Shown piece after piece: positions 31,334-47,238 of a stretch of 64,000 nt of DNA. The DNA is from Bradyrhizobium diazoefficiens. Lineage in GTDB: Bacteria > Pseudomonadota > Alphaproteobacteria > Rhizobiales > Xanthobacteraceae. The stretch spans positions 1,178,001 through 1,242,000 of the forward strand of contig NZ_CP067041.1 in the NCBI RefSeq assembly GCF_016599855.1, read 5' to 3'. Each line of letters starts with the position of its first letter. The first letter of the stretch is position 1. Under the pieces are notes generated by a model. It made no database searches. It was not told the origin of the DNA and was given only the letters and a program-made list of their open reading frames with translations. Made by a program: the position numbers and the translations under genes.

Positions 31334-33217
31334 GTGCCCGTTCAAACTTCCGAATTGCCCGATGGATTGATCATTCCCGTGGACGTTCCGTCCATCGAAG
31401 ATTTTAAGAGCCAGTTCGAGGCCGCCGTTCAGGATCCAGGCTGCCATTTCTACATCGATACCTCCATCCTCGTATGGCTGACGCAGATCGCCAAACCGGC
31501 ACGGGCGCAATTCAAAGATTGGATGAAGCAGGTCGGCGAGACCCGGTTTCACGTGCCGGTCTGGAGCGCCCACGAGTTCTTCAATCACCACGTCAACGAT
31601 CTGATCGGTCGGAAGCTATCCGAAGCGGCAGAGGCCATGCGACAGACCGCGGACCGGACGTACTCGGAGATCAGGCCATTTCTCGGCGAGCCCGTCGACG
31701 AACGGTCGCCCCGGGATCTCCATCTGCAGGCGAGAGATATCCTCGTTCAGCTCAAGCGGTTGGCGACGGACGTCGGGCGCTGGAAGGAGAAGCACTACCA
31801 GCAGCACCTGCAGGAGGTGGTGGATCTGATCACGTCGCTGCGGCTCAGGCAAAGGCCGAGCATCATCGACTTCATGACCGACATCGACGTCTTGGAACGG
31901 AATCGGTATTCCGGACGGATTCCTCCCGGATTCAAGGACAAGCATAAGCGTCCGAAGAACTCGGAGCCCACGAAGACCGGCGCCGGAACCGAGCTTCTGG
32001 GAGACAATCGTTACGGCGACCTGATGTTCTGGCGCGAGGTGTTGGAGCATGCCTCGGCGGACGAGGCGATCACCGCGGTCGTCATCATCTCCAACGACGG
32101 CAAGAACGACTGGCAGATGGGCGCCAGCAGATCGCCCGACGAAGACCAGGAAATGCGCGAGTTGCGGAAGGGGTGGCCTCCGATCCCGACCGTGCACCCC
32201 ATGCTGCGGTATGAAGCCAACTATGCGGCCGCAACGACTTCCGTCATGCTGATCGACTGCGAATACCTGGCGCTGCTGCTCCGGAAGACCGGGGTCGATG
32301 CCGACGATTTCGTGGAAGCCGCGATCGCGACGCGGCTGCCGGATCCGCGCGGCGACGCCAAGGAGAAGCGGAAGTCCAAGGTTCGCGAGGCCTTGGCAAA
32401 ATCCCCGGCCGGCGCGCCCGAAAGCGATCGGATCGTTACGAGCACTCTCGCGCTGGTGCGGGCCTCGCGCGAGAAACGGATCGGTTCGGCCACGGAGGCG
32501 ATGATCTCCGCGATGTTCGACGATGCGACCAGCGGCCAGGTCGTTCCGCCCACCGAAGCTTTCCTTTCGGGCGCGACGACCACCGACCTGGTGCAGCTCG
32601 GCCGCTTTGTCCACTCGCGCGCCGCCTCCAGAGATGCACTCGGCGTAACCAGACTCTCGGATCTGACGGCGGCTCTCGCCGATCTGCCCGACAGGACCGC
32701 CACCTGCATCTATTTCGGCATTCTCATCTCGATCTATTTCGACGAGAACAACGGCGTTAGACTGCCCCCCGCGGCGCTTGGACTGGACGGTCTCGTTCGT
32801 CTTCGTACCAAGAGCTTCGCATCGCGAAGTTTCGAGGCGTTGGAATTCCGCTTCAAGAACGAGCCGAAGCGATCGCCGTTCGTGGTCGACAGGACGAAGG
32901 ACAGGCTCGAAGTCTCGGTGCGGACGAAGGAGGTGGCGACGAGCGAATGTCCGGTGATCACGAGCCTGCAGATCGATGGAATCGAATTGCTCACGGCGGC
33001 TCAGTCGGAGGCCGGATCGCGTCTGAAGACGCAGTTCGACGACAGGACGCCGGTGTCGCTTCAGGAATTGGTGGACGTCGCCGCACGATGCTTCGGGATC
33101 TCCACGCTTCTGATCGGGATCGGCGATCAGGCCCACCGGAAATTCGCGTACGAAGACCTGACGGGATTCGAGGCGCCGGACGCAGTGTTTCTAACCAAGG
33201 AGAACGTCGGTGCCTGA
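31334..33217 (+). CDS. PIN-like (PIN_8) nuclease-domain protein, first gene of the island, 627 aa
   Basis: The N-terminal ~300 residues match the PIN_8 layout: Asp42 in YIDTSILVWL, Glu81 in WSAHEFFNHH, then RIPPGFKDKHK, GDLMFWREVLEHA and VVIISNDGKNDWQ. These supply the acidic metal-binding residues of a PIN ribonuclease fold. Roughly 300 C-terminal residues show no domain I recognise. The GTG start is preceded by GGAG at good spacing. The last 8 bases overlap the HSP90-like gene, so the two are co-translated. In conflict systems PIN domains usually cleave RNA (tRNA, mRNA) or act as flap-type nucleases; target and regulation here are inferred. The GC-rich composition matches the rest of the island and contrasts with the gap upstream. 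Confidence 0.8.
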   Translation: MPVQTSELPDGLIIPVDVPSIEDFKSQFEAAVQDPGCHFYIDTSILVWLTQIAKPARAQFKDWMKQVGETRFHVPVWSAHEFFNHHVNDLIGRKLSEAAEAMRQTADRTYSEIRPFLGEPVDERSPRDLHLQARDILVQLKRLATDVGRWKEKHYQQHLQEVVDLITSLRLRQRPSIIDFMTDIDVLERNRYSGRIPPGFKDKHKRPKNSEPTKTGAGTELLGDNRYGDLMFWREVLEHASADEAITAVVIISNDGKNDWQMGASRSPDEDQEMRELRKGWPPIPTVHPMLRYEANYAAATTSVMLIDCEYLALLLRKTGVDADDFVEAAIATRLPDPRGDAKEKRKSKVREALAKSPAGAPESDRIVTSTLALVRASREKRIGSATEAMISAMFDDATSGQVVPPTEAFLSGATTTDLVQLGRFVHSRAASRDALGVTRLSDLTAALADLPDRTATCIYFGILISIYFDENNGVRLPPAALGLDGLVRLRTKSFASRSFEALEFRFKNEPKRSPFVVDRTKDRLEVSVRTKEVATSECPVITSLQIDGIELLTAAQSEAGSRLKTQFDDRTPVSLQELVDVAARCFGISTLLIGIGDQAHRKFAYEDLTGFEAPDAVFLTKENVGA

Positions 33218-34775
33218 TACAGCCCGGACAGGCCGAAGCCTCCCGATCGAACCGTACTTCGGAGGCTTTATTCTCGAGACGCTGACTCTCGGCATGTACG
33301 GGGAGTCGCGCAACGCGATAAGGGAGTATCTGCAGAACGCATTCGATGCGATCATGCAGGCGCTCAAGGAGGGCCACATCAAGGGTTCGGAAGGCAAGGT
33401 CCGCCTGATCGTGACCGAAGACGGGCTGACGATTCGGGACAACGGTACAGGTCTTCGATCTCGCGTGGCGGTCGACACGCTGACTTCAATAGGTGCCTCG
33501 AAGAAGGACTACCGTAAGGAGGCGGGATTCCGCGGGATCGGGCGGCTTGCGGGGATCGCGCTCTGCGACAAGCTGACGTTCCGCACGAAGGCCCGCAAGG
33601 AGACGATCGAGACGATCGTCGAGATCGATGCCAGGAATCTACGGAGCGAGATGTCGCCGGCGCGCGGGGGTCATCTCCCGCTGGAGGAATTGATGATGAA
33701 CAACATCAAGGCCTCTCAAAGCGAAAGCGACGAGCGCGAGCAGGACGGGTTCTTCGAGGTGATACTTCAGGATTTCGTCGACAGTGCTCCTCTCGAATGC
33801 TCGGACACGAAGCTCCTCTCGGAATTCGTAGGACAGGTCGCGCCGGTGCCGTACGCGAAGGAGTTCACGTTCGCCGAAGACATACTTCGACAGGGCAAGA
33901 AGCGCAACGTTTCCATCGATCAGGTCAGGGTTGTCCTGGAGGAGGGCGACAACAAGACGGAAATCTTCAAGCCGTACAGGAATAGCTTCGCGGTCGTGAA
34001 GGACTCGGTCGAACTGAACGAAGTGACGTACATCGAATCGAAGTCGGACAAGTGGTGGGGCTGGGTCGGCCACAAGACCGAGCCGGGTGCCTATAAGGAC
34101 GACACCACGAAAGGAATCCGCATTCGCGTCAGGAACCTTCAGATCGACGGCACGCAGATCATCGGCAGGATATTCGAGAACGACATCGAAGGTGCGACCA
34201 GCTACGGTAGATTCAACGATTGGTTCGTCGGAGAGATATTCGTGGATCCCACCTATCTCGTTCCGAACGCCAGACGAGATCACTTCGAGGACGACAAGAA
34301 TTGGCGCGAAATGCGCAAGGAGTTGGGAACGGTCTGCGAAGGATTGGGAAAAGAGGCCTATGAGATCTCGCGCAAAAACCAGCACTCGTTGAAGAAGCTC
34401 GCATCGGACACGAAGGAGTTGCAGGACGATGGCAAGAAGCTGTTCGTATCCGACGATCCCTCTCCCGACAAGCTCATCGAGATATCCAGCCGAGCGAACA
34501 AGATTCAGAGGCGGATCGCTCGGGCGTTGCGCAACGCCGACAACGAGACGACCAGCCAGCTTAGATCGCTCGAGAACAAACTCTTGGACGTCAAGACGGA
34601 CGCCGTGCGCAAGCTCGGCCTGACGCAGGCCCTGGACATCGACGAAGCGAGGCAGGAGGCTCAGGACGAGCTTGCATCCAGCCTCGTCGAGGCCTTCAAG
34701 GAAGTGCTGGACTCGCGTTGCTATGGAAAGGCACGCAAGGCGATGGAAGATGTTCTCGGTCGGTCGGATTTCTAG
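33210..34775 (+). CDS. HSP90-like (GHKL) ATPase, copy 1, 521 aa
   Basis: The Bergerat ATP-binding fold is clear: N-box AIREYLQNAFDAI (residues 36-48), IRDNGTGL (75-82, with the Asp-x-Gly-x-Gly signature) and the lid motif GFRGIGRLAG (106-115). A middle region carries LVPNARRDHFE, which is shared with the second HSP90-like protein at 45748. The C-terminal ~130 residues are helical and Lys/Glu-rich. The charged loop SESDEREQDG is a likely linker. Such proteins use ATP-driven N-domain closure to clamp clients or DNA. It is co-translated with the PIN gene through an 8-base overlap, so it may control PIN activity. No histidine-kinase or gyrase/MutL-specific domain is present. Confidence 0.88.
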   Translation: MPDTARTGRSLPIEPYFGGFILETLTLGMYGESRNAIREYLQNAFDAIMQALKEGHIKGSEGKVRLIVTEDGLTIRDNGTGLRSRVAVDTLTSIGASKKDYRKEAGFRGIGRLAGIALCDKLTFRTKARKETIETIVEIDARNLRSEMSPARGGHLPLEELMMNNIKASQSESDEREQDGFFEVILQDFVDSAPLECSDTKLLSEFVGQVAPVPYAKEFTFAEDILRQGKKRNVSIDQVRVVLEEGDNKTEIFKPYRNSFAVVKDSVELNEVTYIESKSDKWWGWVGHKTEPGAYKDDTTKGIRIRVRNLQIDGTQIIGRIFENDIEGATSYGRFNDWFVGEIFVDPTYLVPNARRDHFEDDKNWREMRKELGTVCEGLGKEAYEISRKNQHSLKKLASDTKELQDDGKKLFVSDDPSPDKLIEISSRANKIQRRIARALRNADNETTSQLRSLENKLLDVKTDAVRKLGLTQALDIDEARQEAQDELASSLVEAFKEVLDSRCYGKARKAMEDVLGRSDF

Positions 34776-34809
34776 CGCCGTCCCTCGCAGACACGTGCCG
34801 ATCGGAATT

Positions 34810-35547
34810 TCATTGGTTGTGTGGCGATACCCATTGGCGAGCGTCGCAATGGAGACACTTGCCATCGTGACCTTTCCGCGACCGGTTTAAAGCGTCGTAT
34901 ACGACACCATTCTTAGCATTGCAGAACCGGCAGTCGACTAACGCGGCGACATCGGACTGTGCGCTCAATCCGCAGCAGTGGCAGAAATACGTGTCGGAGA
35001 CCCGCAAGCTGAGCGCGTCGGCCTTGCATTCCCAGCACCGCAGGACGGTTTCGGTGTCGGGATCGTCGAATGCGCTGTCGACCGCCTCGTTCCGATAGGG
35101 CACGAAGGTCGTCAGAATGCCCAGTGCTGCGCCGCTCAGCAGTCGCGCATGATTGGCGAACTCGCCGGTGTCTCTCCAACCGGCCGATGCGAAGCGGTTC
35201 AGAGCGCGGACCGCGAGATGCGCGCTGGTTACCCGTACCTCCGCCAGATCGAGGTCACCTGCGAAGTGGACCAGTTTGTTGCGGAGCGATGCTGCCTCGT
35301 CGAACAGTTCCTTGTCCAGCGGAGACAGCGCCTCGACGTCTTCCAAGGCTTCGAGGGTTCGGCGGTAAGTGATGCTGCGGAATGCTCCTGACCGCACGCG
35401 CGCCAGATCGGCGCACCACGGCCCATCGACCAATTTGGCGAAACCCAGTGCTTCGACCAGACGAAACTTCGCGAGCAGTTCCATGCTGGTTTGTATCGAG
35501 ACGATCGCTATCTTGGCGGTCCGGGAGTCGGCTGCGTTCGAGAACAT
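34810..35547 (-). CDS. HEPN-like domain with C-terminal zinc ribbons, 245 aa
   Basis: The N-terminal half is helical, with SMELLAKFRLVEALGF and SLRNKLVHFAGDL. The second contains the R-x4-H motif (Arg89-His94) typical of HEPN ribonucleases. The C-terminal ~90 residues hold four CxxC pairs (CWEC, CHCC, CRFC, CLHC), enough for two zinc ribbons, a common nucleic-acid-binding add-on. It converges on the first HSP90-like gene with a 34-bp gap and follows the GTPase gene on the minus strand. An upstream ATG at 35630 opens a 21-codon frame (ending in LLFENAADS) whose end resembles this protein's own start (MFSNAADS). This may mark a small duplication or the remains of an altered start. A toxin-like RNase activity is inferred, not shown. 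Confidence 0.65.
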   Translation of the reverse strand: MFSNAADSRTAKIAIVSIQTSMELLAKFRLVEALGFAKLVDGPWCADLARVRSGAFRSITYRRTLEALEDVEALSPLDKELFDEAASLRNKLVHFAGDLDLAEVRVTSAHLAVRALNRFASAGWRDTGEFANHARLLSGAALGILTTFVPYRNEAVDSAFDDPDTETVLRCWECKADALSLRVSDTYFCHCCGLSAQSDVAALVDCRFCNAKNGVVYDALNRSRKGHDGKCLHCDARQWVSPHNQ

Positions 35548-35659
35548 TAGCTCGATCCCGCCACTCAGGAATCTGCCGCGTTTTCGAACAGCAAGTTCAT
35601 TGCGGTCACGTCGATTTCGGTCCAGTTCATTGCATCCTCCACGCTGCTGCGAGACGCGT

Positions 35660-37918
35660 TCACGATAGCTCCACGCCCGCTTCGTCGGCAGCGCCCTGCA
35701 CGACGTCGACGACGTCCCTCAGGAAGAGATTGCGTTCGGGAGAGGGCATGACATCAGGAATCGGCGCGGCGGGATCGAAGATCCTGTTCCCTATGATTCG
35801 GGCACGACGGAAGGTGGAGCCGTCGCGCCTCTCGTCGTAGGCTTCCCGCCACTCGAGTGCCCGGTCGGTCCACACCCTCCGAGTCGACAGTCCCAGAAGC
35901 CGCTTGGCGATGGCAACCGCGAACGTGTCGAAGCACGCGAGTTTGGATTCCCCTTCCGGCTCGCCTTCCGTCCATCCGATCGGGTTCTGCACGAAGACGT
36001 AGATGCGATCGAGAAGATCCTTCCGGAGATCGGCGACGGGATGCAGCGTATCGTAGTGGTCGGACATGCCGGTGGCCAATCTGCGCGACAGCGCTTTGAC
36101 TCTTTGCCAAGGCTCCTTGGCCCACCCCGCTCGTGACTCGAGCCCGAGCCTGGCAAACCACGAATTGTGGAACGCTTCGGCCGCGCTCTTAACCGTAAGG
36201 ACCAGGTCGATCCGATCGTATCGCGGCCTCGACGGCAACGGCTCAGGCCGCTCGACGGTGCGATCGATCAAGCTCAGGAGCTTCTCGAACTGCGAGATCG
36301 TCCTCGACCCCCACGTTTTGTCGTTCGAGAGCGGCTTGTCGATCTGTGCGAGGAATACGCGGGCATTGCCGATCCTGTCGCGGACCGCGCGCTCGGCCGC
36401 CGGACCGAGCTCCTCTCCGAGCGCAGCCGTCACGTTCTCGGCCGACGCAAGAACATGGTCGACCCGCGAAGAGGCGGTCGGAAAGTTGTCTCCCGTGACC
36501 AGGTCGAAGTGCGTGAAGGCGAAAATCAGCTTCGGCGTGTTTCCGGAGGTGACGAGTTCTCGCATCACGGCGATCGGTGCGGCCTGCATCGGTTGGGTGG
36601 AGTTGTCGACGAGAACGACGGCGTCCACCGCCTCGATCCGTCGGATCACGCCGGTCGCCAAGGCGCTCGACGTCCGCGGCGTGTGACCCAGCCCCTCGCC
36701 GTCGAACAGCACGAGCTTCGGAAGCGGGCCCGACGACCAGCTCGGCCGGAATGGACCCGCGACGCGGACGCCGTTCACTAGAGGCGTCAGGAGCCTGCCC
36801 CAATGGAGCGCATGGTTGCCCGAAAATCGAACCACGGCTGTGATGAGCTTGGACCTGTCGTCGGTCGAGCATGTCCACGACGTCGGCCAACCCTGTTTGG
36901 TCCTCCGGAGCTGACCGAATCCTTCGAGCTGGTCGAACCGCTTCTCCATCTCGTCGAGCAGAGAATCGTTCAGGCGATGGAATTCCTCGTCCTGGCGGAC
37001 CAGATCGTCGAGTTCCTCTTCTAGGATCTCGTCGACGACCCGTTCGTCGGATTCCGACTTCGCGCCCAGGCTCTCCTTCACCTGCTTCCCGTGCCTTTCG
37101 GCGATGGATCTGACGGTGCCGACGGCCAGCGTGAGGATCCGGTTGGTCGCGTCGAGGTCGATCCCAATGACTTCGTCATCCGTCTCCACCGCGACCTCTC
37201 CGTCATCGTCGAAATCGCCTGTCTTCGGCTGCGGTCCGTTCCCGAGCACGTAGCTGAAGCGATACCGCTGGTTGACGTGGTTCAGGAGCCTCCTGAGTAT
37301 CTCCCTGTCCGCCGCCCCTCGATGCGCGGCGAGAACGGCGGCCGACGCGCATTCCGCGAGATATTCGCGTATCTCGTCGACCGGGACGAACGTGACGACC
37401 GCGCGCCAGTCGCCTTCGGCGATGACGATCTCCGTATCGTGCACGGTGGTCTTTCCGGCCGACGCGGATGGAAAACGTTCGCGTACCGGATCGGCGCCGA
37501 TCATCTGTCGGACGACGGTGGTCTTGCCGGCTCCGGTCGTGCCCAACAGCAGCACGCGGCGGTAATCGTCCTTCTCCGCATCGGGAAGCGGGATCGCCTC
37601 GTCGCGGATCGCGCCGAAGTCGATTTCGTCCGGAGACATCTTGTCGAAGAACATCTCGACGATGCGCTCGTCGAAGCCGCGGAGAAGTGCCTCGGCCCTC
37701 ATCGCCGGATCGTGGAATTTGGTGTTGGCCAGTAGCTGATTCAGCCCTTCGCAAAGTCGTTCGGCTTCGGCGCGGTCGCGCGTGCCGAGCCCCCGACGGA
37801 TACGGAGGCCCGGTTTGCCGGTCGCTTCGTCCTTCCGCACGGGATGTCTGAAAATCACCGAATAGCCGGTTCGCCCTTGGCTTTGGCTCAGCGTGGCAAC
37901 GTAACCAGTAGGAGACAC
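35660..37918 (-). CDS. Large GTPase with N-terminal recombinase-arm-like region, 752 aa
   Basis: The P-loop GTTGAGKT is at residues 126-133. Later motifs VVLVDNSTQ and IFAFTHFDLVTG fit the G3 and G4 positions of a P-loop GTPase, with THFD replacing the usual NKxD. Long helical regions follow on both sides, as in dynamin-like or immunity-related GTPases. The first 70 residues (YSVIFRHPVRK, then RRGLGTRDRAEAERLCEGL) resemble the arm-binding N-domain of tyrosine recombinases (pattern LGTxDxxEAE), suggesting DNA contact. The likely start is GTG, because no ATG is in a suitable place. The gene is divergent from the first ParB-like gene across a 180-bp region with a large inverted repeat, and precedes the HEPN-like gene by 112 bp. 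It may be a nucleotide-driven sensor or remodeller for the island. Confidence 0.75.
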   Translation of the reverse strand: MSPTGYVATLSQSQGRTGYSVIFRHPVRKDEATGKPGLRIRRGLGTRDRAEAERLCEGLNQLLANTKFHDPAMRAEALLRGFDERIVEMFFDKMSPDEIDFGAIRDEAIPLPDAEKDDYRRVLLLGTTGAGKTTVVRQMIGADPVRERFPSASAGKTTVHDTEIVIAEGDWRAVVTFVPVDEIREYLAECASAAVLAAHRGAADREILRRLLNHVNQRYRFSYVLGNGPQPKTGDFDDDGEVAVETDDEVIGIDLDATNRILTLAVGTVRSIAERHGKQVKESLGAKSESDERVVDEILEEELDDLVRQDEEFHRLNDSLLDEMEKRFDQLEGFGQLRRTKQGWPTSWTCSTDDRSKLITAVVRFSGNHALHWGRLLTPLVNGVRVAGPFRPSWSSGPLPKLVLFDGEGLGHTPRTSSALATGVIRRIEAVDAVVLVDNSTQPMQAAPIAVMRELVTSGNTPKLIFAFTHFDLVTGDNFPTASSRVDHVLASAENVTAALGEELGPAAERAVRDRIGNARVFLAQIDKPLSNDKTWGSRTISQFEKLLSLIDRTVERPEPLPSRPRYDRIDLVLTVKSAAEAFHNSWFARLGLESRAGWAKEPWQRVKALSRRLATGMSDHYDTLHPVADLRKDLLDRIYVFVQNPIGWTEGEPEGESKLACFDTFAVAIAKRLLGLSTRRVWTDRALEWREAYDERRDGSTFRRARIIGNRIFDPAAPIPDVMPSPERNLFLRDVVDVVQGAADEAGVELS

Positions 37919-38097: not shown

Positions 38098-39114
38098 ATG
38101 GCTCGTCTTTCGCTTGGCGGCAAATCGACGGAAGTCATCCACGAGGATGTCGGGATCGAGACGTTGCTCCTCAATCCCGAGAATCCGCGGATCCGCTTCA
38201 TGCTGAACAAGACCAAGGGCAAGAAGGATCAGGCATCGCTGATGACGCTCATCCGCGCGCAGCCGGGATACGACGACATTCACAAATCCATCCGCAAGGC
38301 GGACGGTCTGCATGATCCGATCATCATCAGCCACGATGGGCTTGTGGTCGAGGGCAACACCAGGACGACCGCGGTGAAGGCGCTTCATGAAGGCGCCAAG
38401 CAGGACAAGCGGTGGCTCACCGTGCCCGTGATGCGTCTGCCGCGCAACGTCGACGAGAAGGGGATGGGTCTCCTGATGGCGGCCTACCACATCGGCGGAA
38501 AGAACCGCTGGCGCGCCTTCGCGCAGGCCGAGCATATCCATACACTGGTGAACACCCACAAAGTCGCGATCGCGACGATCGCCGACGAAGCGCGGATGAG
38601 CGAGGGGAAAATCCGGCAATATCTCGAAGCGTTCGCTTTCCTGGTCGACGAAGTTCTGCCCGAGGCCGAAGAAGGCGACGTCACCGAAATCCTCGAGAAG
38701 AAGTGGAGTCACGCGCTCGAGTTCATCGCGGGAAAGCCGAACGCCGCGCATCGGAGCAGCAAGTCGACCCGCAAGGAAGTGGCGAAGCTCATCGCGACGA
38801 CCAAGATCAAGGGCGCCGAAGTCCGCAATATCGGCGCGATACTCTCGAATCCGAAGGCGAAGACGGAGCTCAAGAAGGCGGGTCTGGCCAGCGCCAAGAA
38901 GGTGCTGGCGGCCGACGACCCGGTCGCGGACTCCAAGTTCCTGCGGCAGGTGCAGGCCATGACCGCAACTCTGGAGAATCTGAAGGGTGGAGACATCGAG
39001 CTTCTCCGGAAGCACGCGGCTGCGCGCAAGATCGTGAAGGAATTGAAGGAGGCCGTTGAGAACGTCATCGACGTGGCCGGCGCCGGCAGGAGTGGCAAGA
39101 ATGGCAAAGCGTAG
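38098..39114 (+). CDS. ParB-like protein 1, 338 aa
   Basis: A ParB/Srx-type N-domain is indicated by LLLNPENPRIRF, GLHDPIIISHDGLVVEGNTR and the helix after it. The usual GERRxxA of ParB is replaced here by EGNTRTTA. Next come AYHIGGKNRWRAFAQAEHI and a helix-turn-helix-like stretch (IATIADEARMSEGKIRQYL), as in the linker and HTH of ParB. The remainder is helical and Lys-rich. It is paralogous to the next two genes. I choose ATG 38098 because GGAG precedes it; the in-frame ATG at 37990 lies inside the operator. Its 3' end overlaps the second ParB-like gene by 14 bases. A chromosome-partition role is unlikely, since there is no ParA and no parS-like array. Confidence 0.8.
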   Translation: MARLSLGGKSTEVIHEDVGIETLLLNPENPRIRFMLNKTKGKKDQASLMTLIRAQPGYDDIHKSIRKADGLHDPIIISHDGLVVEGNTRTTAVKALHEGAKQDKRWLTVPVMRLPRNVDEKGMGLLMAAYHIGGKNRWRAFAQAEHIHTLVNTHKVAIATIADEARMSEGKIRQYLEAFAFLVDEVLPEAEEGDVTEILEKKWSHALEFIAGKPNAAHRSSKSTRKEVAKLIATTKIKGAEVRNIGAILSNPKAKTELKKAGLASAKKVLAADDPVADSKFLRQVQAMTATLENLKGGDIELLRKHAAARKIVKELKEAVENVIDVAGAGRSGKNGKA

Positions 39115-40163: not shown

Positions 40164-41210
40164 ATGGCGCGGTACGTGCGGAACATCCAGAACAACAGGG
40201 TCGAGCTCGAGCTGATCGAGATCGATCCCGACGACGTCGTGCTCGATCCGACCAACCCGCGCGTCGGCTTCTCAATGCGGCAGCTCGGCGACGTCGGAGG
40301 AGACGATGCCGCCTGCACCCTTCTGCTCACTAGCCAGGAGGACACCGAATCCCTGAAGCGGTCGATCATGCTGTCGGGTGGCGTCCAGGAACCGATCTAT
40401 CTGCGGCACGACCGGACGGTGGCCGAAGGCAACAGGCGCGTGGTGGCGCTGCGTGCGGCAAAGGAGGAGCATCCCGACAACCCCGCGTTCGGCACGATGC
40501 CGGCATGGATCATTCCCGAAGGCACGCCCGAACACGTCGTGCAGGATCTCCTCAATGAGATACATCTCGGCTCCGTGCGGGGCTGGGCTCCGTACGAGAA
40601 GGCGCTCCAGATGCGGGCTCTGGTCGCGAGCGGCCTCATCGAGGCGGAGGTCGCCGAGCGCTACAGGATGACGACCAACGACGTCCGCCAGCACATCGAG
40701 GCCGCCAATCTCATGGACCGGCTCTATTTCCCCATCACCAACGATCCGACCGACACCGAACACCGCAGCAAGTACTCCTACTTCCTGGAATTCGCGAAGA
40801 ACGGGCGCATCCAGCGCCATCGCGAGGCAATGCCAGATCTGCCGCAGCGGTTCGCCGGCTGGGTGCGCGACGGACGTCTTGACACCGGCATGAAGGTCCG
40901 CAGGCTACCGAAGATCCTCGACGCCAAGGAGGCGGTCCGGCTGCTCGAGGTCGACGGCTTCGATGCAGCCGAGGAGTATCTCGCCGAGCGCAATCCGCGC
41001 GAGCAGGAGATGTACCTTCTGATGGAGCGCGTCCGCGCGCGGCTGGCGGAGATGTCAGTCGTCGAACTGGTCGAGGCCAAGCAGAGCGCCGAGCGCGTCG
41101 AGATCCTCGAGGCCTTGCGCCAGACCGTCACCGACGTGCTGGACAACATCGAGCGCGTCGCCGTGCGGGAAACCGGGCGCAAGGCCGGGGCCGGCCGGCG
41201 GAGGCGCTGA
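40164..41210 (+). CDS. ParB-like protein 3, 348 aa
   Basis: The key blocks are VVLDPTNPRVGF, GGVQEPIYLRHDRTVAEGNR, EIHLGSVRGWAPYEKALQM and a recognition-helix-like stretch (LIEAEVAERYRMTTNDVRQHI). It is the most diverged of the three: the GGKN of the linker is changed to GSVRG, and the motif reads EGNRRV. Its end is Arg/Gly-rich (TGRKAGAGRRRR), a possible DNA-contacting tail. The stop TGA shares a base with the ATG of the next gene. Three different ParB-like copies in tandem suggest subunits with distinct roles in one complex. Confidence 0.8.
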   Translation: MARYVRNIQNNRVELELIEIDPDDVVLDPTNPRVGFSMRQLGDVGGDDAACTLLLTSQEDTESLKRSIMLSGGVQEPIYLRHDRTVAEGNRRVVALRAAKEEHPDNPAFGTMPAWIIPEGTPEHVVQDLLNEIHLGSVRGWAPYEKALQMRALVASGLIEAEVAERYRMTTNDVRQHIEAANLMDRLYFPITNDPTDTEHRSKYSYFLEFAKNGRIQRHREAMPDLPQRFAGWVRDGRLDTGMKVRRLPKILDAKEAVRLLEVDGFDAAEEYLAERNPREQEMYLLMERVRARLAEMSVVELVEAKQSAERVEILEALRQTVTDVLDNIERVAVRETGRKAGAGRRRR

Positions 41211-41641
41211 TGGCGGGCAGCGTGCACCAGAGCCTGCTTCTCTGGGCGGCGAGGCGCATGTCGGCGGACGGCTTCATCGTCTCGGGCTTCGACGGAAGCG
41301 CGGAGCGCGGTGGGCGGTTCAACGGTCTGCCGTCGCCCTTCCTTCTCCGAGGCAGGCGGCCGGACGCATGGGGCGCGGACGACAACGGCTCGCTTCTCGC
41401 GTTCGCGGAAGCGAAGTCCGCCGGCGACATCCGCTCGTCCAGGACGCTCGACCAGTTCCGGATATTCGGCGCGGTCCGCACCATGCGCGGCGTGCTGTGC
41501 CCCCTCTACGTCGCGGTGCCGCGCGAGTCCGCGCCGGCGCTGGATTGGGCGCTTCGCGCCGCCGGGCTCGCGTCGGCGCGCAACGTCGTCAGGATCCACG
41601 TTCCGGAGATACTTCTGAAGGAGGGCCGCCGTGCCGCGTGA
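41210..41641 (+). CDS. Small PD-(D/E)xK-like nuclease, 143 aa
   Basis: The short protein contains RRPDAWG (Pro51-Asp52), then FAEAKS (Glu67-Ala-Lys69) and a following helix with Arg and Asp (DIRSSRTLDQF). This is the signature spacing of the PD-(D/E)xK nuclease fold. It is small, as are VRR-NUC or Holliday-resolvase-like members. It is wedged between ParB3 (TGATG junction) and the SNF2-type gene (11-base overlap), so it is very probably translated with them. A DNA-cleaving partner of the helicase is the likeliest role. The assignment rests on motif and context only. Confidence 0.6.
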   Translation: MAGSVHQSLLLWAARRMSADGFIVSGFDGSAERGGRFNGLPSPFLLRGRRPDAWGADDNGSLLAFAEAKSAGDIRSSRTLDQFRIFGAVRTMRGVLCPLYVAVPRESAPALDWALRAAGLASARNVVRIHVPEILLKEGRRAA

Positions 41642-43067
41642 CACCGATCTGGTGCTTCCTCATCAGGTCGAGGGCACCGACTTCCTGCGCAACAACCCGC
41701 GCGCGGCCCTGTTCGACGAGCAGGGGCTCGGCAAGAGCAAGCAGCTCATCGACGCCATCGCCGCTCAGATCCGTACGGGCGAGATCGCGGGCGCGGTCAT
41801 CGTGTGCCCGAACGGACTGAAGACGAATTGGGCGCAGGAGATCGCCAAGTTCAGCGATCTTCCCGTCGCCGTCTTCGGCGCCGGCCGGAAGGCGCGGCGC
41901 TCGTCGTTTGCCAAGCTGCGGGCCGCGTTCTACGTCATCAACTACGAAGCGATCGGAGCCGAGTTCGCCTCGCTGAAGGCTCTTCTGCGGTTCAAGCCGA
42001 TGGCTCTCGTGCTCGACGAGAGCCACCGCATCAAGACGCCCGAGGCGAAGGTGACCGCGGCCGTGCTCCAGCTCCGGGAGAGCGCCCGCCGCCGGTACAT
42101 CCTGTCGGGCACGCCGGTCGCCAACAAGCCCGACGACCTCTGGAGCCAGTTCTACTTCCTGGATGACGGCCAATCCTTGGGTCAGACGCTCGACGAGTTC
42201 AGAAGCCGGTACCGCAGCGCCGGCGGCGGCTACGTCGCGTTGGACGACCTGCGGGAGCGGGTCGGCGCGATGTCGAAGCGACGGCTCAAGGATACGGCCG
42301 TCGCGCTGCCGGCCAAGAAGGTCAGCCGGGTGCGTCTGTCGATGACGGGTCGGCAACTCGCGCTCTACGACGGCATGAGGAACGAACTGGCCGTCTGGGT
42401 GCAGTCGATGGACGGCGAGCAGGTGCTGGCCGAGGCCGAGGCGATTCTCGCGAGGCTCGTCCGCCTGTTGCAGCTCGCCTCCGAGCCCTCGATGCTCGAC
42501 GCCTCCTACGACGAGGATCCCTGCAAGCTCGTGGCTCTGGATGCGCTTCTCGACGACGTCCTGTCGCGCCCGGATGCCCGCAAGGTCATCGTCTGGACCT
42601 CGTTCGTGGCCAACATCGCCTCTCTCGAGCGTCGCTACGCGCGCTACCGGCCAGTGTCCCTGCACGGGGCGCTCCGGGGAGAGGAGCGCGACGCCTCCGT
42701 GCGCGCGTTCAAGCAGAATCCGGAGGTCAGGCTCATGGTGGCGAACCCGGCGGCGGCCCGCGAGGGATTGACGCTGACCGAGGCGAACGTCGCCGTCTAT
42801 CTCGACAGAACGTTCAATCTCGTCGATTACCTGCAATCGCAGGACCGGATCCACCGCATCTCGCAGACGAAGGACTGCGAGATCGTGCTGCTGCTCGCCA
42901 AGGATTCAATTGACGAGTTCGTCGACTTCTGCCTCGAGCAGAAGACCAGGCTCGCCCGCTTCGTCCAGCAGGACGCCGATGCCATTCTTCCTGCGGACGC
43001 CGCCCTCGAGAAGCCGGACATCCTGCGGGCGCTGTTGTGGCCGGAAGCGGAGGCTCAGGAGCAATAG
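41631..43067 (+). CDS. Compact SNF2-type (SF2) DNA translocase/helicase, 478 aa
   Basis: Motif I is FDEQGLGKSK (residues 28-37), motif II is VLDESH, motif III is ILSGTP, and the C-domain has VIVWTSF, VANPAAAREGLTL and motif VI YLQSQDRIHRISQ. These are SNF2-family motifs. The protein has both RecA-like lobes but no long accessory domains, so it is shorter than most SNF2 proteins. It likely moves along double-stranded DNA using ATP. The overlap with the small nuclease gene suggests a nuclease-translocase pair, as in several restriction-like systems. A multi-pass membrane pseudogene converges on its 3' end. Confidence 0.88.
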   Translation: MPRDTDLVLPHQVEGTDFLRNNPRAALFDEQGLGKSKQLIDAIAAQIRTGEIAGAVIVCPNGLKTNWAQEIAKFSDLPVAVFGAGRKARRSSFAKLRAAFYVINYEAIGAEFASLKALLRFKPMALVLDESHRIKTPEAKVTAAVLQLRESARRRYILSGTPVANKPDDLWSQFYFLDDGQSLGQTLDEFRSRYRSAGGGYVALDDLRERVGAMSKRRLKDTAVALPAKKVSRVRLSMTGRQLALYDGMRNELAVWVQSMDGEQVLAEAEAILARLVRLLQLASEPSMLDASYDEDPCKLVALDALLDDVLSRPDARKVIVWTSFVANIASLERRYARYRPVSLHGALRGEERDASVRAFKQNPEVRLMVANPAAAREGLTLTEANVAVYLDRTFNLVDYLQSQDRIHRISQTKDCEIVLLLAKDSIDEFVDFCLEQKTRLARFVQQDADAILPADAALEKPDILRALLWPEAEAQEQ

Positions 43068-43905
43068 GCGGACCAGTGCGAGAAGTCCCAGAGCTTGAGG
43101 ACGTACGGCATCCATCCGTCGAGAAGGATGATGGCGCCCCCGAGCACGAGCAGAACGCGCGGCGTCCGGGCGTCGCCATCCAGGTCAGCGCCGCGAGCAC
43201 CTGGTTCTGCCGGGTTGGCCATCGGGTAGAGGAATGGCCAAGCCCAACGGAAGTCCAGAATGTCGCGCACCAGCGCCACGATGCCGAAGCCATAAAGAAA
43301 CCAGGCGCCTGACCCGTCCCGGGATGCCCGAACAGGACCGGCCCGACGATGAGTACCAGAACCCGACCGGCAGCAGAAGGATGGCGCTGTTCATCACCAT
43401 CCACTAGGCGTGTAGCTGGCCTTCGCGGGCTATTTCCTTCGGCGTCGATATCTTCTTTCCAGATCCCACGGCGGATGAGGGAGGAGTGTCTGAACTCGCT
43501 GATCACGAGCAGGACGAGGCCGAAGCCGAGCAGCACGACCTAGGGAGCGAGAAGTACCGACGTAGCCGAGCTTGTGGGTCACGTCGCTCGCGAGCGAGTT
43601 CGCCATCAGGAAGAACGGGGCGGCGGTCAGAACCAATTGGATGAGTCGGCTGCGAAGCCCCAAGGATGAGCCTCGGAATGCGGCGCCTTGGCGTACCGGA
43701 TGTCGAGGAACTTGACGCTCTGATGGTAGAACACGGCCGCAGTGATGAGAAAGACCGTCATCGTCTCGATGTTGAGGGCCCACAACCAGCCAGGAGACGA
43801 CTTTCCCGAAACCAGGACGGGTTTCAGCTTCGCGTAGGCGCCGTTACCGGCTATCCCGAAACTCAAGGCGAACACCACGGCGAACAATCGCTTCAGATTG
43901 TCCAT
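43055..43905 (-). pseudogene. Multi-pass membrane protein gene broken by several frameshifts
   Basis: Minus-strand pieces in different frames form one plausible membrane protein when read in order. It begins at ATG 43905 (MDNLKRLFAVVFALSFGIAG, then NIETMTVFLITAAVFYHQS). It continues as LIQLVLTAAPFFLMANSLAS, LLGFGLVLLVISEFRHSS, MNSAILLLPVGFW and FRWAWPFLYPMANP, then ILLDGWMPYVLKLWDFSHW. About six hydrophobic segments result. At least four frame changes are needed, so the gene is decayed or the assembly is poor here. It may have been the membrane effector of the island. Confidence 0.6.
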
Positions 43906-44131
43906 TGTGCGCTCGCCCTGCCTGACCCGGTCGGCCGTCAGCTTGGCGGCATCCTCCGGGGGGCGTGCCGCTCGGCTGCGCGCCGGTTTGCGTCATGGTG
44001 ACATCCGCGGAATCGGCGGCTAGAACGGCCCGAACCGGGCGTCGCGGGGGAGAAATGCGGCCGAATCACAACTTTGCGATCGCATTCTGGACCGTGCACG
44101 TGTAGTGTCGTACGGGACGGGGAAAGTGGCA

Positions 44132-45751
44132 ATGCCGAACAAGCGTATTCTATTGATCGAGCCGGGGTACAAGAACAAGTACCCGCCTATCGGACTCATG
44201 AAAATCGCCCAGTATCACGGTCCGCGAGGCAAGCGCGACAACGTGGTGTTCGTCAAGGGCGTCGACCGTTCCGTCCTTCTGTCGCACTGGGATCGGGTCT
44301 ACGTCACCACTCTGTTCTCGTTCGAGTACGCCAAGATCGCCGAAACCATCGACTTCGCGATTGAAGCCGTTCATGGCCAGACTCAACGGGTCTTCGTCGG
44401 CGGCATCGCGGCGTCTCTGATGCATTCGCGCTTTGTCGCCGAACCTCGCTGGCGCGGCATCCGATTCATCAAGGGCCTTCTTGACAAGCCGCCGGCCATC
44501 GCGTTGGGGCTCGACGAGTACGACGGCGATTTCTATGCCGGTGACACCTCCGGAACTCCCATCGAAGATCTGGTGCCGGACTACGGCATTCTAGAGCAGA
44601 TCGACTATGATTATCCCGTCCGCGACGCCTATTTCGCCTACGCTTCGCGCGGGTGCATCCGCAAATGCCACTTCTGCGGCGTCCCCAAGCTCGAAGGGGC
44701 GCAGCGCGATGCCACTCCGCTTACCGCTTTCGTCAATGCGGTCGATGCGATCTACGGGCCGCGCCGCGACATGCTGCTGATGGACAACAATGTGGTGGCA
44801 TCGACCCGCTTCAAGGAGATCATCGCCGAGATCCGCGATCTCGGCTTCACGCCCGGCGCGAAGCTCCGCCGCGGCGACCGCAGCGTCCAGCGCCGCGTCG
44901 ACTTCAACCAGGGCGTCGATGCGCGCATCCTCTGCAAGGATCGCATGTATCTGCGGGAGCTGTCGTCGATCTGCCTGAGTCCCCTGCGCATCGCGTTCGA
45001 CCACCTCGGACTCAAGGGGCCGTACGAGACGGCCATCCGGTATTCGAACGAGTTCGGCATGAACGATCTGTCGAACTACATGCTGTATAATTTCCACGAC
45101 ACTCCGCTCGATCTGTTCGAGCGCATGCATCTTAACGTCCGTCTCAACGAGGAGCTCGGCATCCGCATCTACTCCTTCCCGATGCGGTATCAGCCGACGG
45201 ACCTTCCGGATCGCTCTCACGTCGGCGCCAAGTGGAACAGGTATTTCCTGCGGTCCGTCCAGATCGTGCTGCAGGCGACCCAGGGTGTGGTCTCGGGCGA
45301 GCCGGAGTTCTTCAAGGCGGCGTTCGGCGACAGCGCGGATCAGTTCGAGGACATCCTTCTGCGTCCCCATCACATGATCTTCAATCGCCGATGGTTCGAA
45401 TTCTACGAAGGGCGCGCCGAATTCGACGAGTACCTTTCGGCGATGCGCAAGCTCTCCGTTTCCGAGAGGTCGGAGCTGCTCGAATTCCTCTGCGGCCGCA
45501 TGCCGGGACGATACAAGCAGGATCTCGGCTCACTGAGCGGCAGCGTCCTCCAGGCCGCGAGGTTCTACGTGCCGATGGAGCGCGAACGCGAGCTGGAGGT
45601 CCGTCGGCTGCAGCGCGAACGGCGAGGGGTCGCTCCGGACATCCGTCTGTCGTCGGCCGAAATCGTCGAGGATGCCGGTCTCGAGGAGACGGAGTTCGCC
45701 GCTCCGGTCAAGCCGGCCCCGCGCCGCAGGTCCAAGGAGGTTGCCGCATGA
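44132..45751 (+). CDS. B12-binding-domain-type radical SAM protein, 539 aa
   Basis: The radical SAM cluster motif is Cys175-x3-Cys179-x2-Cys182 in ASRGCIRKCHFCGVP. The preceding ~150 residues have the look of a cobalamin-binding Rossmann-like domain (RILLIEPGYKNKYPPIGLMK, then VYVTTLFSFEY and VFVGGIAAS), as in MiaB-unrelated B12-type enzymes. Such enzymes do methylation or other radical chemistry. The ~200 C-terminal residues are helical and end in a basic tail (PAPRRRSKEVAA). The ATG at 44132 follows GGGGA. Its stop overlaps the second HSP90-like start (ATGA). A radical SAM enzyme beside nucleases and ParB-like proteins hints at modification of nucleic acid or a small-molecule signal; the substrate is unknown. 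Confidence 0.85.
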   Translation: MPNKRILLIEPGYKNKYPPIGLMKIAQYHGPRGKRDNVVFVKGVDRSVLLSHWDRVYVTTLFSFEYAKIAETIDFAIEAVHGQTQRVFVGGIAASLMHSRFVAEPRWRGIRFIKGLLDKPPAIALGLDEYDGDFYAGDTSGTPIEDLVPDYGILEQIDYDYPVRDAYFAYASRGCIRKCHFCGVPKLEGAQRDATPLTAFVNAVDAIYGPRRDMLLMDNNVVASTRFKEIIAEIRDLGFTPGAKLRRGDRSVQRRVDFNQGVDARILCKDRMYLRELSSICLSPLRIAFDHLGLKGPYETAIRYSNEFGMNDLSNYMLYNFHDTPLDLFERMHLNVRLNEELGIRIYSFPMRYQPTDLPDRSHVGAKWNRYFLRSVQIVLQATQGVVSGEPEFFKAAFGDSADQFEDILLRPHHMIFNRRWFEFYEGRAEFDEYLSAMRKLSVSERSELLEFLCGRMPGRYKQDLGSLSGSVLQAARFYVPMERERELEVRRLQRERRGVAPDIRLSSAEIVEDAGLEETEFAAPVKPAPRRRSKEVAA

Positions 45752-47238
45752 AGCTGAACGCGAAGCCGGATGCATCGACCCGAACGGTGTCTCCCGAGGA
45801 CGTGCGGGTCGGAAAGGACGTCGTCGAGATCTTGACGAGCGGCATGTACGTGTCTCCGCTGTCGATATATCGCGAATACGTGCAGAACTCCGCTGATTCC
45901 ACCGACGCCGCGAAAGGCAGGGGCGGCGCAGCCAGGGCGGGGCGGGTCGCCATCGACATCGACCATTCGGCGAGAAGCGTCACCATTCGCGACGACGGTG
46001 GCGGCGTTCCCGCCGACAAGGCGGCCGACGTGCTCCTGGCGGTCGGCGGATCGCGGAAGCGGGGCACGGAAGCGAGAGGGTTTCGCGGAGTCGGCCGCCT
46101 GTCGGGCCTGGCCTATTGCCGGCAGATCGAATTCGTCACCAAGGCGAAGGATGCCGACCGGATCGCGCGGATCGTCTGGGACTGCCGCAAGCTGAGGGAG
46201 ATGATCTCCGCGAACGGAGGCGCCGACGATCTGCGGACCGTGATGGCCAGCGCCGTTTCCGTCGCCACCGAAAGCGTCGCGGCCGGCCAGCCGTCCTTCT
46301 TCGAGGTGCGCATGAGCGATGTGGCGCGTCTGCGCAGCGATCTTCTGCTGAACGAGCACCTGATCGAGGAGTATCTTTCGCAGGTGGCTCCGGTGCCTTT
46401 TTCGTCCGACTTCTCCTTCGCCTCGCAGATCGACGACGAGTTGAGCAAGCGGATGAAGCTGTCCCGGCTCGATCTCTCCGTCAACGGGAAGACCATCACG
46501 CGGCCTCATCGCGACGAACTGCTCCCGGGATCGGCCGAGAAGGCATCCCGCATCAGGGAAGTCGAGTTCTTCGAGTTGGCCGACGTCGACGGCGAGGTCG
46601 GCGCCGTGGGATGGCTGGGCCATCACGACTACGTCCGAAGCCTTCCAGCCAATCTGGGGGTGCGCGGACTGCGCGCCCGCGTCGGAGACCTGCAGGTCGG
46701 CGAGTCCAATCTCTTCGAGGAGTCCTACAAGGAGACGCGATTCAATTCGTGGACTGTCGGCGAGATCCACATGCTCGACCGCCGGATCGTCCCGAACGCC
46801 CGACGCGACAACTTCGAAGCCAACCATCACTATGCGAACATGCTCGTGCAGATCGGACCGGTCGCGGCCAAGATCTCCCAGCGTTGCCGGCAGGCGTCGT
46901 TGTCGCGGACCGCGCTGCAGGTGGTCGAAAATCTCATCCATCAGATCGAGGATCGCCTGAAGCAGAAGAAGCCGCGCATCGAGCGGGCGGAACTCTCCCG
47001 ACTGAAGGCCGCGGCCGTCCGCGCGGAGGCGAAGGCCGAGAAGATCGAAGACGAGACCGATCGGAAGAAGTCGCTGGCGCGGCTCGCGAAGGCCCAGAAG
47101 AAGCTCTCCGCGTTGACGCCGCGCCGCGGGCCGGCCACCGTCGCGGTATCCGAGGTCGCGTCGCTCATCGCGAAATTCGTGACGAGCCGAGAACAGCGCG
47201 AGAAACTCGTGGCGGCAATCGGAAAGCTCGTCGAGTAG
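45748..47238 (+). CDS. HSP90-like (GHKL) ATPase, copy 2, 496 aa
   Basis: The Bergerat-fold motifs are N-box REYVQNSADSTDA (residues 42-54), IRDDGGGVP (80-88) and lid GFRGVGRLSG (111-120). Its middle region has IVPNARRDNFE, shared with the copy at 33210. The C-terminus is a long charged coiled coil (about residues 400-455) followed by a short globular end. I choose ATG 45748, four bases overlapping the radical SAM stop; a longer frame reaching back to 45232 is antiparallel noise inside the radical SAM gene. The two copies share motif order but differ widely elsewhere, so they are old paralogues. This one is paired with the radical SAM enzyme as the first is paired with the PIN protein. Confidence 0.88.
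   Translation: MKLNAKPDASTRTVSPEDVRVGKDVVEILTSGMYVSPLSIYREYVQNSADSTDAAKGRGGAARAGRVAIDIDHSARSVTIRDDGGGVPADKAADVLLAVGGSRKRGTEARGFRGVGRLSGLAYCRQIEFVTKAKDADRIARIVWDCRKLREMISANGGADDLRTVMASAVSVATESVAAGQPSFFEVRMSDVARLRSDLLLNEHLIEEYLSQVAPVPFSSDFSFASQIDDELSKRMKLSRLDLSVNGKTITRPHRDELLPGSAEKASRIREVEFFELADVDGEVGAVGWLGHHDYVRSLPANLGVRGLRARVGDLQVGESNLFEESYKETRFNSWTVGEIHMLDRRIVPNARRDNFEANHHYANMLVQIGPVAAKISQRCRQASLSRTALQVVENLIHQIEDRLKQKKPRIERAELSRLKAAAVRAEAKAEKIEDETDRKKSLARLAKAQKKLSALTPRRGPATVAVSEVASLIAKFVTSREQREKLVAAIGKLVE

Follow-up and report, generated by a model that had tools for sequence, protein, structure and literature searches.

A radical SAM/HSP90 gene set of Bradyrhizobium diazoefficiens that resembles an undescribed immune system and may mark DNA in a new way

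Introduction

DndB and DpdB, two proteins of DNA modification, contain a DGQHR domain. Here, we describe a gene set in which a DGQHR protein often accompanies a radical S-adenosylmethionine (SAM) enzyme and an HSP90-like ATPase, and which resembles an immune system not described before, with a possible new way of marking DNA. The set lies at positions 31334 to 47238 of a 64,000-nucleotide stretch of the genome of the soil bacterium Bradyrhizobium diazoefficiens (assembly GCF_016599855.1, a single contig of 7.10 Mb, NZ_CP067041.1; positions 1,178,001 to 1,242,000). This whole stretch is called the window below. Dpd and Dnd are among the closest described systems. For Dpd, the portions of one report that treat DpdB present it as a ParB-like ATPase through which the modified base gets inserted and as dispensable in some clusters (PMC12839542). 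DndB is, in the pertinent part of a second report, a ParB-superfamily regulator of phosphorothioation that stands beside the DNA-modifying enzymes (PMC10853773), and a DndB-like protein binds both ATP and GTP, the section concerned treating the ParB fold as a versatile nucleoside triphosphate (NTP) binder (PMC12704722).

An initial annotation of the window, made from its letters, had proposed eleven genes as one undescribed multi-gene system with a role in defense or nucleic acid modification. Nine of the eleven recur together and move horizontally, and to that extent the proposal holds; the other two, g3 and g4, had to be excluded. The annotation had overlooked the DGQHR partner gene (which the window's clade lacks), the swappable restriction-endonuclease-DGQHR module, and the invariance of the radical SAM/HSP90 core. 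No published description of the gene set was found in the open PubMed Central literature, a scope that leaves subscription journals and preprints aside, and the main text of the 2026 DefensePredictor paper makes no mention of radical SAM, HSP90, ParB, SNF2, or DGQHR (PMC13092281).

Results

Gene content and relation to described systems

All eleven claimed genes are open reading frames (ORFs) at the places given for them. They are listed here with the relic of a further gene.

31334..33217, + strand: g1, 627 amino acids (aa), PIN_8 protein, candidate RNase-like effector, pairs with g2
33210..34775, + strand: g2 (HSPb), 521 aa, HSP90-like GHKL ATPase, partner of the PIN protein, 8-bp overlap with g1
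34810..35547, - strand: g3, 245 aa, HEPN-like with zinc-ribbon cysteines, a passenger outside the recurrent set
35660..37918, - strand: g4, 752 aa, P-loop GTPase-like, a passenger
38098..39114, + strand: g5, ParB-like protein 1 with an EGNxR box (proposed start ATG at 38098; longest ORF from 37990)
39101..40150, + strand: g6, ParB-like protein 2
40164..41210, + strand: g7, ParB-like protein 3
41210..41641, + strand: g8, 143 aa, small PD-(D/E)xK nuclease, by motif
41631..43067, + strand: g9, 478 aa, SNF2-type DNA translocase/helicase
43068..44104, - strand: relic, decayed and frameshifted membrane-protein gene
44132..45751, + strand: g10, 539 aa, radical SAM enzyme, system core
45748..47238, + strand: g11 (HSPa), 496 aa, HSP90-like GHKL ATPase, system core, 4-bp overlap with g10

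The tight overlaps that had been reported exist within three + strand groups, g1-g2 (spacing of -8 bp), g5-g9 (-14, +13, -1, and -11 bp), and g10-g11 (-4 bp), and do not extend to a single operon. The groups are split by g3 and g4 on the - strand and by a 1,064-bp gap between g9 and g10 that holds the decayed gene, so that the eleven genes are not one unit. Nor is the composition uniform, as had been stated, because the GC content of the genes spans 0.58 to 0.71.

No PADLOC system matched the locus as a whole, which agrees with the earlier remark that known systems lack this set, and a known system as its identity was ruled out by PADLOC, NCBIfam, Pfam, and PHROGs. PADLOC at E <= 0.1 gave no match for g1, g8, or g10, nor for the HSPa and PIN proteins of a related locus, L016 (L-numbers are labels of the compared loci). 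None of the curated NCBIfam cutoffs was reached by g1 to g10 or by the L016 relative of g11. The small DGQHR protein exceeded the curated cutoff of TIGR03187 (152 versus 58.85 bits), and a PDB profile search with DGQHR gave no match.

Partial likenesses were apparent. First, Dpd shares a restriction-modification-like logic of writer and cutter. The DGQHR protein of L016 is related to DpdB (62.7 bits with NF041060, missing the equivalog cutoff of 300), the g9 helicase is related to DpdE (131 bits), and the DGQHR gene is dispensable here as DpdB is in some Dpd clusters, according to the portions cited above (PMC12839542). However, a TGT-like DpdA was absent from the seven gene clusters common to the related loci (each seen in over 10 of the 96) and from the listed matches of g1 to g10 and of ten related-locus proteins, and the role of writer would here fall to a radical SAM enzyme together with an HSP90-like ATPase. 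Second, the DGQHR domain is shared with DndB, and the small DGQHR protein scores 45 bits with TIGR04172 (cutoff, 450), but no DndC, DndD, DndE, or Ssp writers appeared in the seven clusters or among the PADLOC matches listed, and the DndB model was matched by one large fusion protein alone (L018, 24.7 bits versus a cutoff of 328). Third, the SNF2 part of g9 matches ZorD of type I Zorya (157 bits), and the L018 fusion has a weak match (E = 0.002) to the Mrr-like end of ZorD, but ZorA/ZorB motor genes were found neither in the common clusters nor among the matches listed for g1 to g10, and the ZorD equivalog cutoff of 1500 compares with 79.7 bits. Fourth, the helicase is similar to DrmD of DISARM (74 bits), whereas the DrmD cutoffs of 610 and 950 compare with 37 and 29.5 bits, and no DrmA, DrmB, DrmC, or methyltransferase was seen in the common clusters or among the matches listed for g1 to g10. 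The PglZ-BrxC, GajA-GajB, and CD-NTase cores of BREX, Gabija, and CBASS were likewise missing from the PADLOC matches listed for g1 to g10, and g9 matches BrxH of BREX as a helicase only. Finally, TmtA (PADLOC) and the BbrUII/HgiDII-type restriction enzymes (NCBIfam) share the GHKL ATPase domain, but the match is limited to that domain (BbrUII, 14 to 22.5 versus 550 bits), and we know of no radical SAM partner for these proteins. We regard the gene system as new in make-up; in its mechanism, it may be a new branch of modification-based immunity.

Phages carry a relative of the enzyme. The phage radical SAM family phrog_9298 is related over residues 14 to 385 (1.1e-37), but it is shorter, no HSP90-like partner is annotated in three phage regions, and the EDAGL tail is missing in the one aligned. 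One short radical SAM relative, in Phocaeicola phage PV4-TP1 (L124), lies in a region with methyltransferases and a phosphoadenosine phosphosulfate reductase and is a phage-side counterpart of the enzyme, perhaps in DNA modification.

A radical SAM enzyme and an HSP90-like ATPase form an invariant core

Related loci were compared as a set of 96, made up of 80 genome loci, 8 viral loci, 7 plasmid loci, and the window. The 80 were the best of 254 radical SAM-encoding stretches from a species-level genome collection scanned by family alignment, and because of this choice they lean toward the window's subfamily. Family profiles were seeded with the window and plasmid genes, and the genome samples may omit the records closest to the window's genome.

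In 79 of 80 genome loci and in all viral (8 of 8) and plasmid (7 of 7) loci, the radical SAM gene is immediately followed by the HSP90-like gene. The sole genome exception, L023, is a locus whose contig ends inside its radical SAM gene. When ORFs of the 96 loci were clustered without labels, the radical SAM cluster was found in 96, the HSP90-like in 95, the ParB-like in 57, SNF2 in 54, DGQHR in 52, the nuclease in 39, and PIN in 30, followed by an eighth cluster, integrase by its reading, in 10. The radical SAM enzyme and the HSP90-like ATPase are thus the invariant core. The DndB/DpdB-like DGQHR protein is a frequent companion, its gene preceding the radical SAM gene in 36 of the 80 genome loci, and a SNF2-ParB block is present in 42 of them. 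The PIN RNase-like protein with the second HSP90-like ATPase, HSPb, makes a frequent third module (23 of 80). Two loci, L130 and L131, show the order HSPb-radical SAM-HSPa with no PIN gene by profile, and may hold either a divergent PIN or a variant core with two HSP90-like ATPases.

The same association was found on plasmids. In a tblastn search of 72,556 plasmid records, g10 matched 15, 12 of them at 60 to 80% identity and three distantly. With limits of at least 60% identity for the g10 family and 1e-10 for its partners, the g10, g11, PIN, and small DGQHR families occurred in the same 12 records and in no others, the PIN match covering just 32% of the query in one. These 12 records represent ten organism names and include near-duplicates (two from N. 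aromaticivorans, two from Mesorhizobium NZP2077, and two from Rhizobium AB2/73). The seven annotated plasmid neighborhoods all have the DGQHR gene directly 5′ and the HSP90-like gene directly 3′ of the radical SAM gene. Six also have the PIN/HSP90-like pair, the seventh (Roseomonas) having PIN elsewhere on the plasmid; five have the nuclease-SNF2-ParB block, and two have a large DGQHR protein. Independent scatter of the genes, which the initial annotation had named as the outcome that would speak against a system, was therefore not what was found; the plasmid reciprocity and the locus counts place the association far beyond chance.

The family is sporadic and widespread. The genus sample held one full copy in 265 genomes, the only other match being a 30-bit fragment, and there was 1 copy in 120 relatives. 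A protein search named three further Bradyrhizobium copies with 81 to 90% identity to g10, so 1 in 265 understates the presence at strain level. Even draws gave 2 positives in 385 genomes of the class, the window's own genome included, and 4 in 398 of the phylum, both class-draw positives included. The three genomes that these draws added all carry the core pair (one at a contig end, with the HSP90-like gene in two ORFs). Record titles name Alpha- and Gammaproteobacteria, Acidobacteriota, Verrucomicrobiota, Gemmatimonadota, Chloroflexota, Nitrospirota, and Latescibacterota. The core pair also stands, in reversed order, on an unannotated human-gut contig that is filed as phage (MT836743) and whose radical SAM protein is distant (36% identity).

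The idea that all eleven genes form one system was rejected, as g3 and g4 do not recur and neither falls in the seven common clusters. The g3 profile matched none of the other 95 loci, and g3 had no match in the plasmid records. A g4 relative was present in 1 of 95 other loci (L018), and 8 of the 11 plasmid records with the g4 family are without the radical SAM gene. These 11 plasmids come from Rhodococcus, Caballeronia, Azospirillum, and others, and 3 of them also have the radical SAM system. Both genes sit inside the system (34810-37918, - strand) and seem to belong to other things. The HEPN-like reading of g3 is borne out as far as an R-x4-H motif and the cysteines of a zinc ribbon are legible in its letters, with matches to HEC-08 (PADLOC, 2e-13) and DUF3644 (6e-10); for g4, the P-loop of the claimed GTPase is readable, but every Pfam match fell below its cutoff.

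Conserved motifs of the recurrent proteins

The radical SAM motif CxxxCxxC, the site for a [4Fe-4S] cluster, is found in g10 and in 96 of 96 members. Pfam Radical_SAM was matched weakly by all 25 members scanned (E <= 0.1; best, 1e-5), and g10 itself scored under its cutoff (14.2 versus 29.5 bits). The label "B12-type" given to g10 is unproven, a B12-binding Pfam family being matched weakly by 5 of the 25 (best E, 0.008). Identity of g10 to 24 relatives was 57 to 82%. By a strict pattern, 89 of the 96 proteins end, after a variable linker, in the tail [VI]ED[AS]xL; the remainder are six variants and one protein cut by a contig end, so that 95 of 96 keep the motif. Conservation of a tail behind a variable linker suggests a docking peptide.

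Both GHKL folds of the initial annotation were recovered, g2 over the Pfam cutoff (HATPase_c_3, 35.2 versus 25 bits) and g11 through its family profile, which matches HtpG chains at 4.7e-12. The ATP-site residues E39, N43, D46, D77, and G79 and the GFRGIGR motif of HSPb were invariant in an 18-row alignment, and the HSPa motifs (E/N, DxGxG, and GxxGxG) were invariant in 21 rows. The g2 protein is 50% identical to a copy on plasmid pNL1. The PIN_8 domain of g1 was clear (81.9 bits; Pfam cutoff, 26.1), as were the SNF2 motifs of g9 (SNF2-rel_dom, 6e-27, and Helicase_C, 5e-13, both above the Pfam cutoff), whose Walker A motif was found in 54 of 54 family members.

The ParB-like triplet is a looser assignment. 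The E, G, N, and R of its EGNxR box are invariant in a 24-row alignment, but the likeness of the family profile to ParB chains is weak (about 1e-3). Relatives lie in L013: g5 is 49.9% identical to L013_hypC, g6 is 74.9% identical to L013_hypB (Bradyrhizobium sp. 187 plasmid), and g7 is 81.7% identical to L013_hyp1. The PD-(D/E)xK motif claimed for g8 is present as PD-x14-E-A-K. The D...E-x-K pattern of this putative nuclease occurs in 49 of 49 profile members, g8 among them, with D52, E67, A68, K69, D73, and Q82 kept in all. No Pfam family was matched by g8. It falls outside the 39-locus nuclease cluster and is joined to the family by profile and, in blastp, by its identity to the nucleases of L013 (59%) and L014 (36% over 67 residues).

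Two nuclease modules exclude each other

In most loci, the core is tied to one of two modules, called S and D, which are mutually exclusive. S consists of ParB-like proteins, the small PD-(D/E)xK nuclease, and the SNF2 translocase, and D is a protein of about 780 residues in which a restriction-endonuclease-like N-terminal part is followed by a DGQHR domain. On the plasmids, S is present in 7 of the 12 records (SNF2 gene, E <= 1e-60) and D in the remaining 5 (E <= 1e-40). One small-nuclease query matched six of the seven S plasmids, and the seventh bears the g8 type. The D protein of the two Rhizobium AB2/73 plasmids is identical to the Agrobacterium S7/73 copy.

For the tree and the exclusivity counts, duplicates (L063, L065, L030, and L035), a partial locus (L010), and distant loci (L015, L019, and L020) were dropped, and 91 rows were kept. 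S was present in 53 rows, D in 16, both in 0, and neither in 22 (Fisher p, 8.5e-8). The bit-score threshold for D, 300, was chosen once L100, an S locus that matches the D profile with 38 bits, had been seen; at 30 bits there are 17 D rows, and one row has both modules. Among the 60 rows with at least 7 kb on each side, 37 have S, 12 have D, and 11 have neither. The exclusion also held when descent was considered: in 9 tree-independent row pairs from supported branches, S and D were opposite in 7.3 on average, the same in none, and undiffering in 1.7, and a tree-aware sign test gave a median p of 0.016 (range, 0.008 to 0.06).

These counts bear on the possibility that there is no single system and that separate defense modules merely share islands. 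The modules do invert and reorder freely, and the PIN and SNF2 blocks come and go, as such sharing would have it. However, of 72,556 plasmid records, the same 12 hold all four families, and in these S and D never occur together and jointly cover all 12. Because independent islands would not yield such exclusivity and reciprocity, we consider mere sharing of islands highly improbable.

The counts also bear on an RNA-centered system, in which the radical SAM enzyme would modify tRNA or rRNA, the PIN RNase would join it in protecting or sacrificing translation, and the DNA modules would be add-ons. The best matches of the radical SAM core, which are weak, include methylthiotransferases of the MiaB/RimO type, and the PIN family is present on 12 of the 12 plasmids. 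But PIN was found in just 26 of the 91 loci, compared to 69 for the DNA-cutting modules, and DGQHR is a domain of DNA-modification proteins; this alternative seems to us quite unlikely.

Further genes were seen near some loci. A cassette with a CxxxCxxC protein, a methyltransferase-like protein, and an HSP90-like ATPase lies near the system in L032 and L079 (at 13 to 18 kb of the locus), in L066 (at 4 to 10 kb), and in L044, and contains a HerA-like ATPase in L032, L066, and L079. Here, too, a cysteine-cluster protein is paired with an HSP90-like ATPase, and we take this CxxxCxxC protein to resemble phage Gp37/Gp68. The cassette was considered as a third nuclease module and rejected; it is probably a neighboring system, because parts of it also adjoin the D module in L044. 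Extra divergent DGQHR-type proteins stand by the S block or the core in L085 (17233-18390), L025 (13185-14180), and L100 (about 17.1 kb), and a further variant module may lie behind them.

A stable core with exchangeable modules

On the radical SAM tree of the 91 rows, the minimum number of changes was 5 for the adjacent DGQHR gene, compared to 24 for the SNF2 block, 13 for the D fusion, and 16 for PIN. Mean column identity, in alignments of 18 to 25 rows whose row sets differ, was 65% for radical SAM, 61% for DGQHR, 47% for HSPa, 37% for HSPb, 34% for the ParB-like proteins (paralogues mixed), and 28% for PIN. The putative writer side is thus stable, and the putative cutter side swaps. A modification core whose restriction parts can be exchanged would be expected to show this pattern, which provides the chief argument for the mechanism that we propose below.

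A sensor-effector design also fits effectors that swap behind a constant core. Here, an immune system with no self mark would respond to infection when the radical SAM enzyme makes a signal or toxic nucleotide, or modifies a partner protein, and so turns on the nuclease and PIN modules. Viperin is a radical SAM defense protein that makes a toxic nucleotide, viperin-type defense being known, and the conserved C-terminal tail looks like a docking peptide. Yet the radical SAM protein has no PADLOC match at E <= 0.1, and DNA handling, rather than nucleotide signaling, is what the DGQHR and PD-(D/E)xK/SNF2 modules suggest. Signaling of this kind is somewhat unlikely in our judgment.

The window itself departs from the common arrangement. 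Its S block has the order ParB-ParB-ParB-nuclease-SNF2, seen in 5 of 54 blocks, the usual order being ParB-nuclease-SNF2-ParB (41 of 54); the reading frames of its S and PIN modules are intact. No DGQHR gene was found in the window by tblastn with nine DGQHR proteins (chance scores, E >= 0.27) or in its genome by a profile that was positive in 3 of 3 control genomes. The window belongs to a clade of five with a support of 100 (with L003, L021, L022, and L023), in which no adjacent DGQHR gene is present, L021 having just 1.9 kb of upstream sequence. The core of this clade must therefore work without DGQHR.

One member of the clade, L022, bears the D module. The relic at 43068..44104 matches an L022 protein by tblastn (50% identity over 98 aa [2e-23], 28% over 83 aa, and 45% over 38 aa), and its relatives, membrane proteins of about 290 to 360 aa, stand intact beside the D module in L022 and L045. 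From this kinship, seen in a comparison of three loci, the S block of the window may have replaced a D-type arrangement. The relic stretch had no match in the plasmid DNA search. That the 1-kb gap between g9 and g10 might be a broken DGQHR gene was ruled out by tblastn and profile; the gap is a decayed membrane-protein gene.

Mobile setting and defense-rich flanks

Neighbor clusters 7, 8, and 13 were read as integrases or resolvases, and among 140 flank ORFs Pfam found Phage_integrase in 4 and Resolvase in 2. When 140 of the 482 flank ORFs from 73 loci were compared to PADLOC (E <= 1e-10), 119 families were matched, PD-T7-1, AbiEii, Aga_Nuclease, capP, HEC-01A, and AriA being among the matches listed. 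The control, 140 of the 304 ORFs from twenty 20-kb stretches of the same genus, gave 10 families (mad3, mad2, mad8, GlgB-like, NYN, Csa3 twice, RmrA twice, and AriA). Such counts are inflated where several models match one protein. On a Mesorhizobium plasmid, a CD-NTase/ThiF/Mov34 set and a patatin are annotated about 5 kb past the PIN pair. Sporadic spread, mobile setting, and defense-rich flanks are indirect signs of a role in defense, which is likely.

The same setting could suit a device for plasmid or island competition or maintenance (entry exclusion, anti-plasmid action, or protection of its own DNA) rather than one against phages. The initial annotation had foreseen that the set might prove to be part of a plasmid region. 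This is so for the 12 plasmids, seven of them typed conjugative, with integrases and resolvases nearby, but not for the chromosomal copies, the window among them. ParB-like proteins are common on plasmids. Against such a device, the family also occurs in contigs of many phyla, some megabases long, and ParA families are missing from the seven common clusters (those present in over 10 of the 96 loci). We regard a maintenance or competition device as unlikely.

In an empty-site comparison by the right flank, 35 of 41 genomes gave matches, most of them short and to the chaperonin, and no shared site was seen; the stretches 25001-31333 and 47239-52000 have no direct repeats of at least 14 bp in common; and no tRNA or Rfam features were found in the window. 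To the left, the - strand holds two giant adjacent ORFs of 2,183 and 2,581 aa (6893-21192), with no Pfam family over the cutoff, and an ORF (28138-28968) with a sub-threshold match to GAP1-C, the GTPase-associated protein 1 C-terminal domain (21.8 versus 27.9 bits), which may be the remnant of a different conflict system. On the right side of the island lies an alkene/propane-type monooxygenase cluster (50171-56240, - strand) with a chaperonin, methane/phenol/alkene hydroxylase subunits, and a reductase.

Discussion

We tentatively read this gene set as a mobile restriction-modification-like immune system, in which the radical SAM/HSP90 core would make a self mark or license and swappable nuclease modules would cut unmarked DNA. 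We give this reading, drawn from gene content and sequence comparison, slightly less than even confidence. It proceeds by analogy: the DGQHR kinship with DpdB of Dpd and DndB of Dnd is why the core is likened to a DNA-marking or licensing machine and S and D to its cutters. In the sequence of events that we infer, the core would act by radical chemistry on a nucleic acid, host DNA being the most likely, and so yield the self mark or a licensing product, and HSPa would power the writer by loading, clamping, or remodeling its complex. The ParB-like and DGQHR proteins would act as NTP-dependent DNA clamps or mark sensors, and the nuclease module, reading the mark, would translocate along incoming DNA and cut it where it is unmarked. 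The PIN-HSP90 pair would be an RNA-cutting backup that fires once the first line has failed. A more specific form of this mechanism, possible but doubtful, would make the set a new class of immune system: it is that the radical SAM enzyme, driven by the HSP90-family ATPase, writes a new DNA mark by carbon-centered radical modification of a base or sugar, that SNF2-nuclease or restriction-endonuclease-DGQHR modules destroy DNA without it, and that HSP90-PIN is a suicide backup.

Several observations weigh against the marking mechanism. First, g10 is without a characterized close relative: its best matches to solved chains are two weak ones, RimO with its core (E = 0.01) and chlorophyll catabolite reductase with its C-terminal part (E = 0.007, probably chance), which do not fix the substrate class as DNA, RNA, nucleotide, or protein. 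Second, the main link to DNA modification, an adjacent DGQHR gene, is missing from the window's clade and at least four others. Third, 22 of the 91 loci show neither nuclease module, as do 11 of the 60 with flanks of at least 7 kb, 6 of these 11 having PIN. Fourth, the catalytic lysine of the D module is not in its usual position, D109 and E122 being kept in 17 of 18. The nuclease reading of the D fusion, for which that of L018 gave the Mrr-like match, is thus weaker than that proposed for g8. Fifth, strict ATPase patterns are imperfect (95, 87, and 91 of 95 for HSPa; 19, 31, and 31 of 32 for HSPb). Finally, the control for the defense-rich flanks consists of chromosomes of one genus and does not match the background of mobile islands or mixed organisms, and weak generic models (mad3, mad8, and AriA) match flanks and control alike.

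The set is not rare. At least 7,935 significant relatives of the radical SAM protein were found among 7,998 candidates scored in the protein search, besides the 254 encoding stretches of the species-level collection. The two exclusive nuclease modules behind one core provide a natural experiment on what the core tells its cutters. If the set is an immune system, the writer cores known so far would gain two protein classes, one with radical SAM chemistry and one an HSP90-type ATPase. An HSP90 motor in bacterial immunity would bear on the origin of HSP90-like proteins in immune signaling, and a DNA mark written by a radical SAM enzyme, if true, would be a new epigenetic chemistry.

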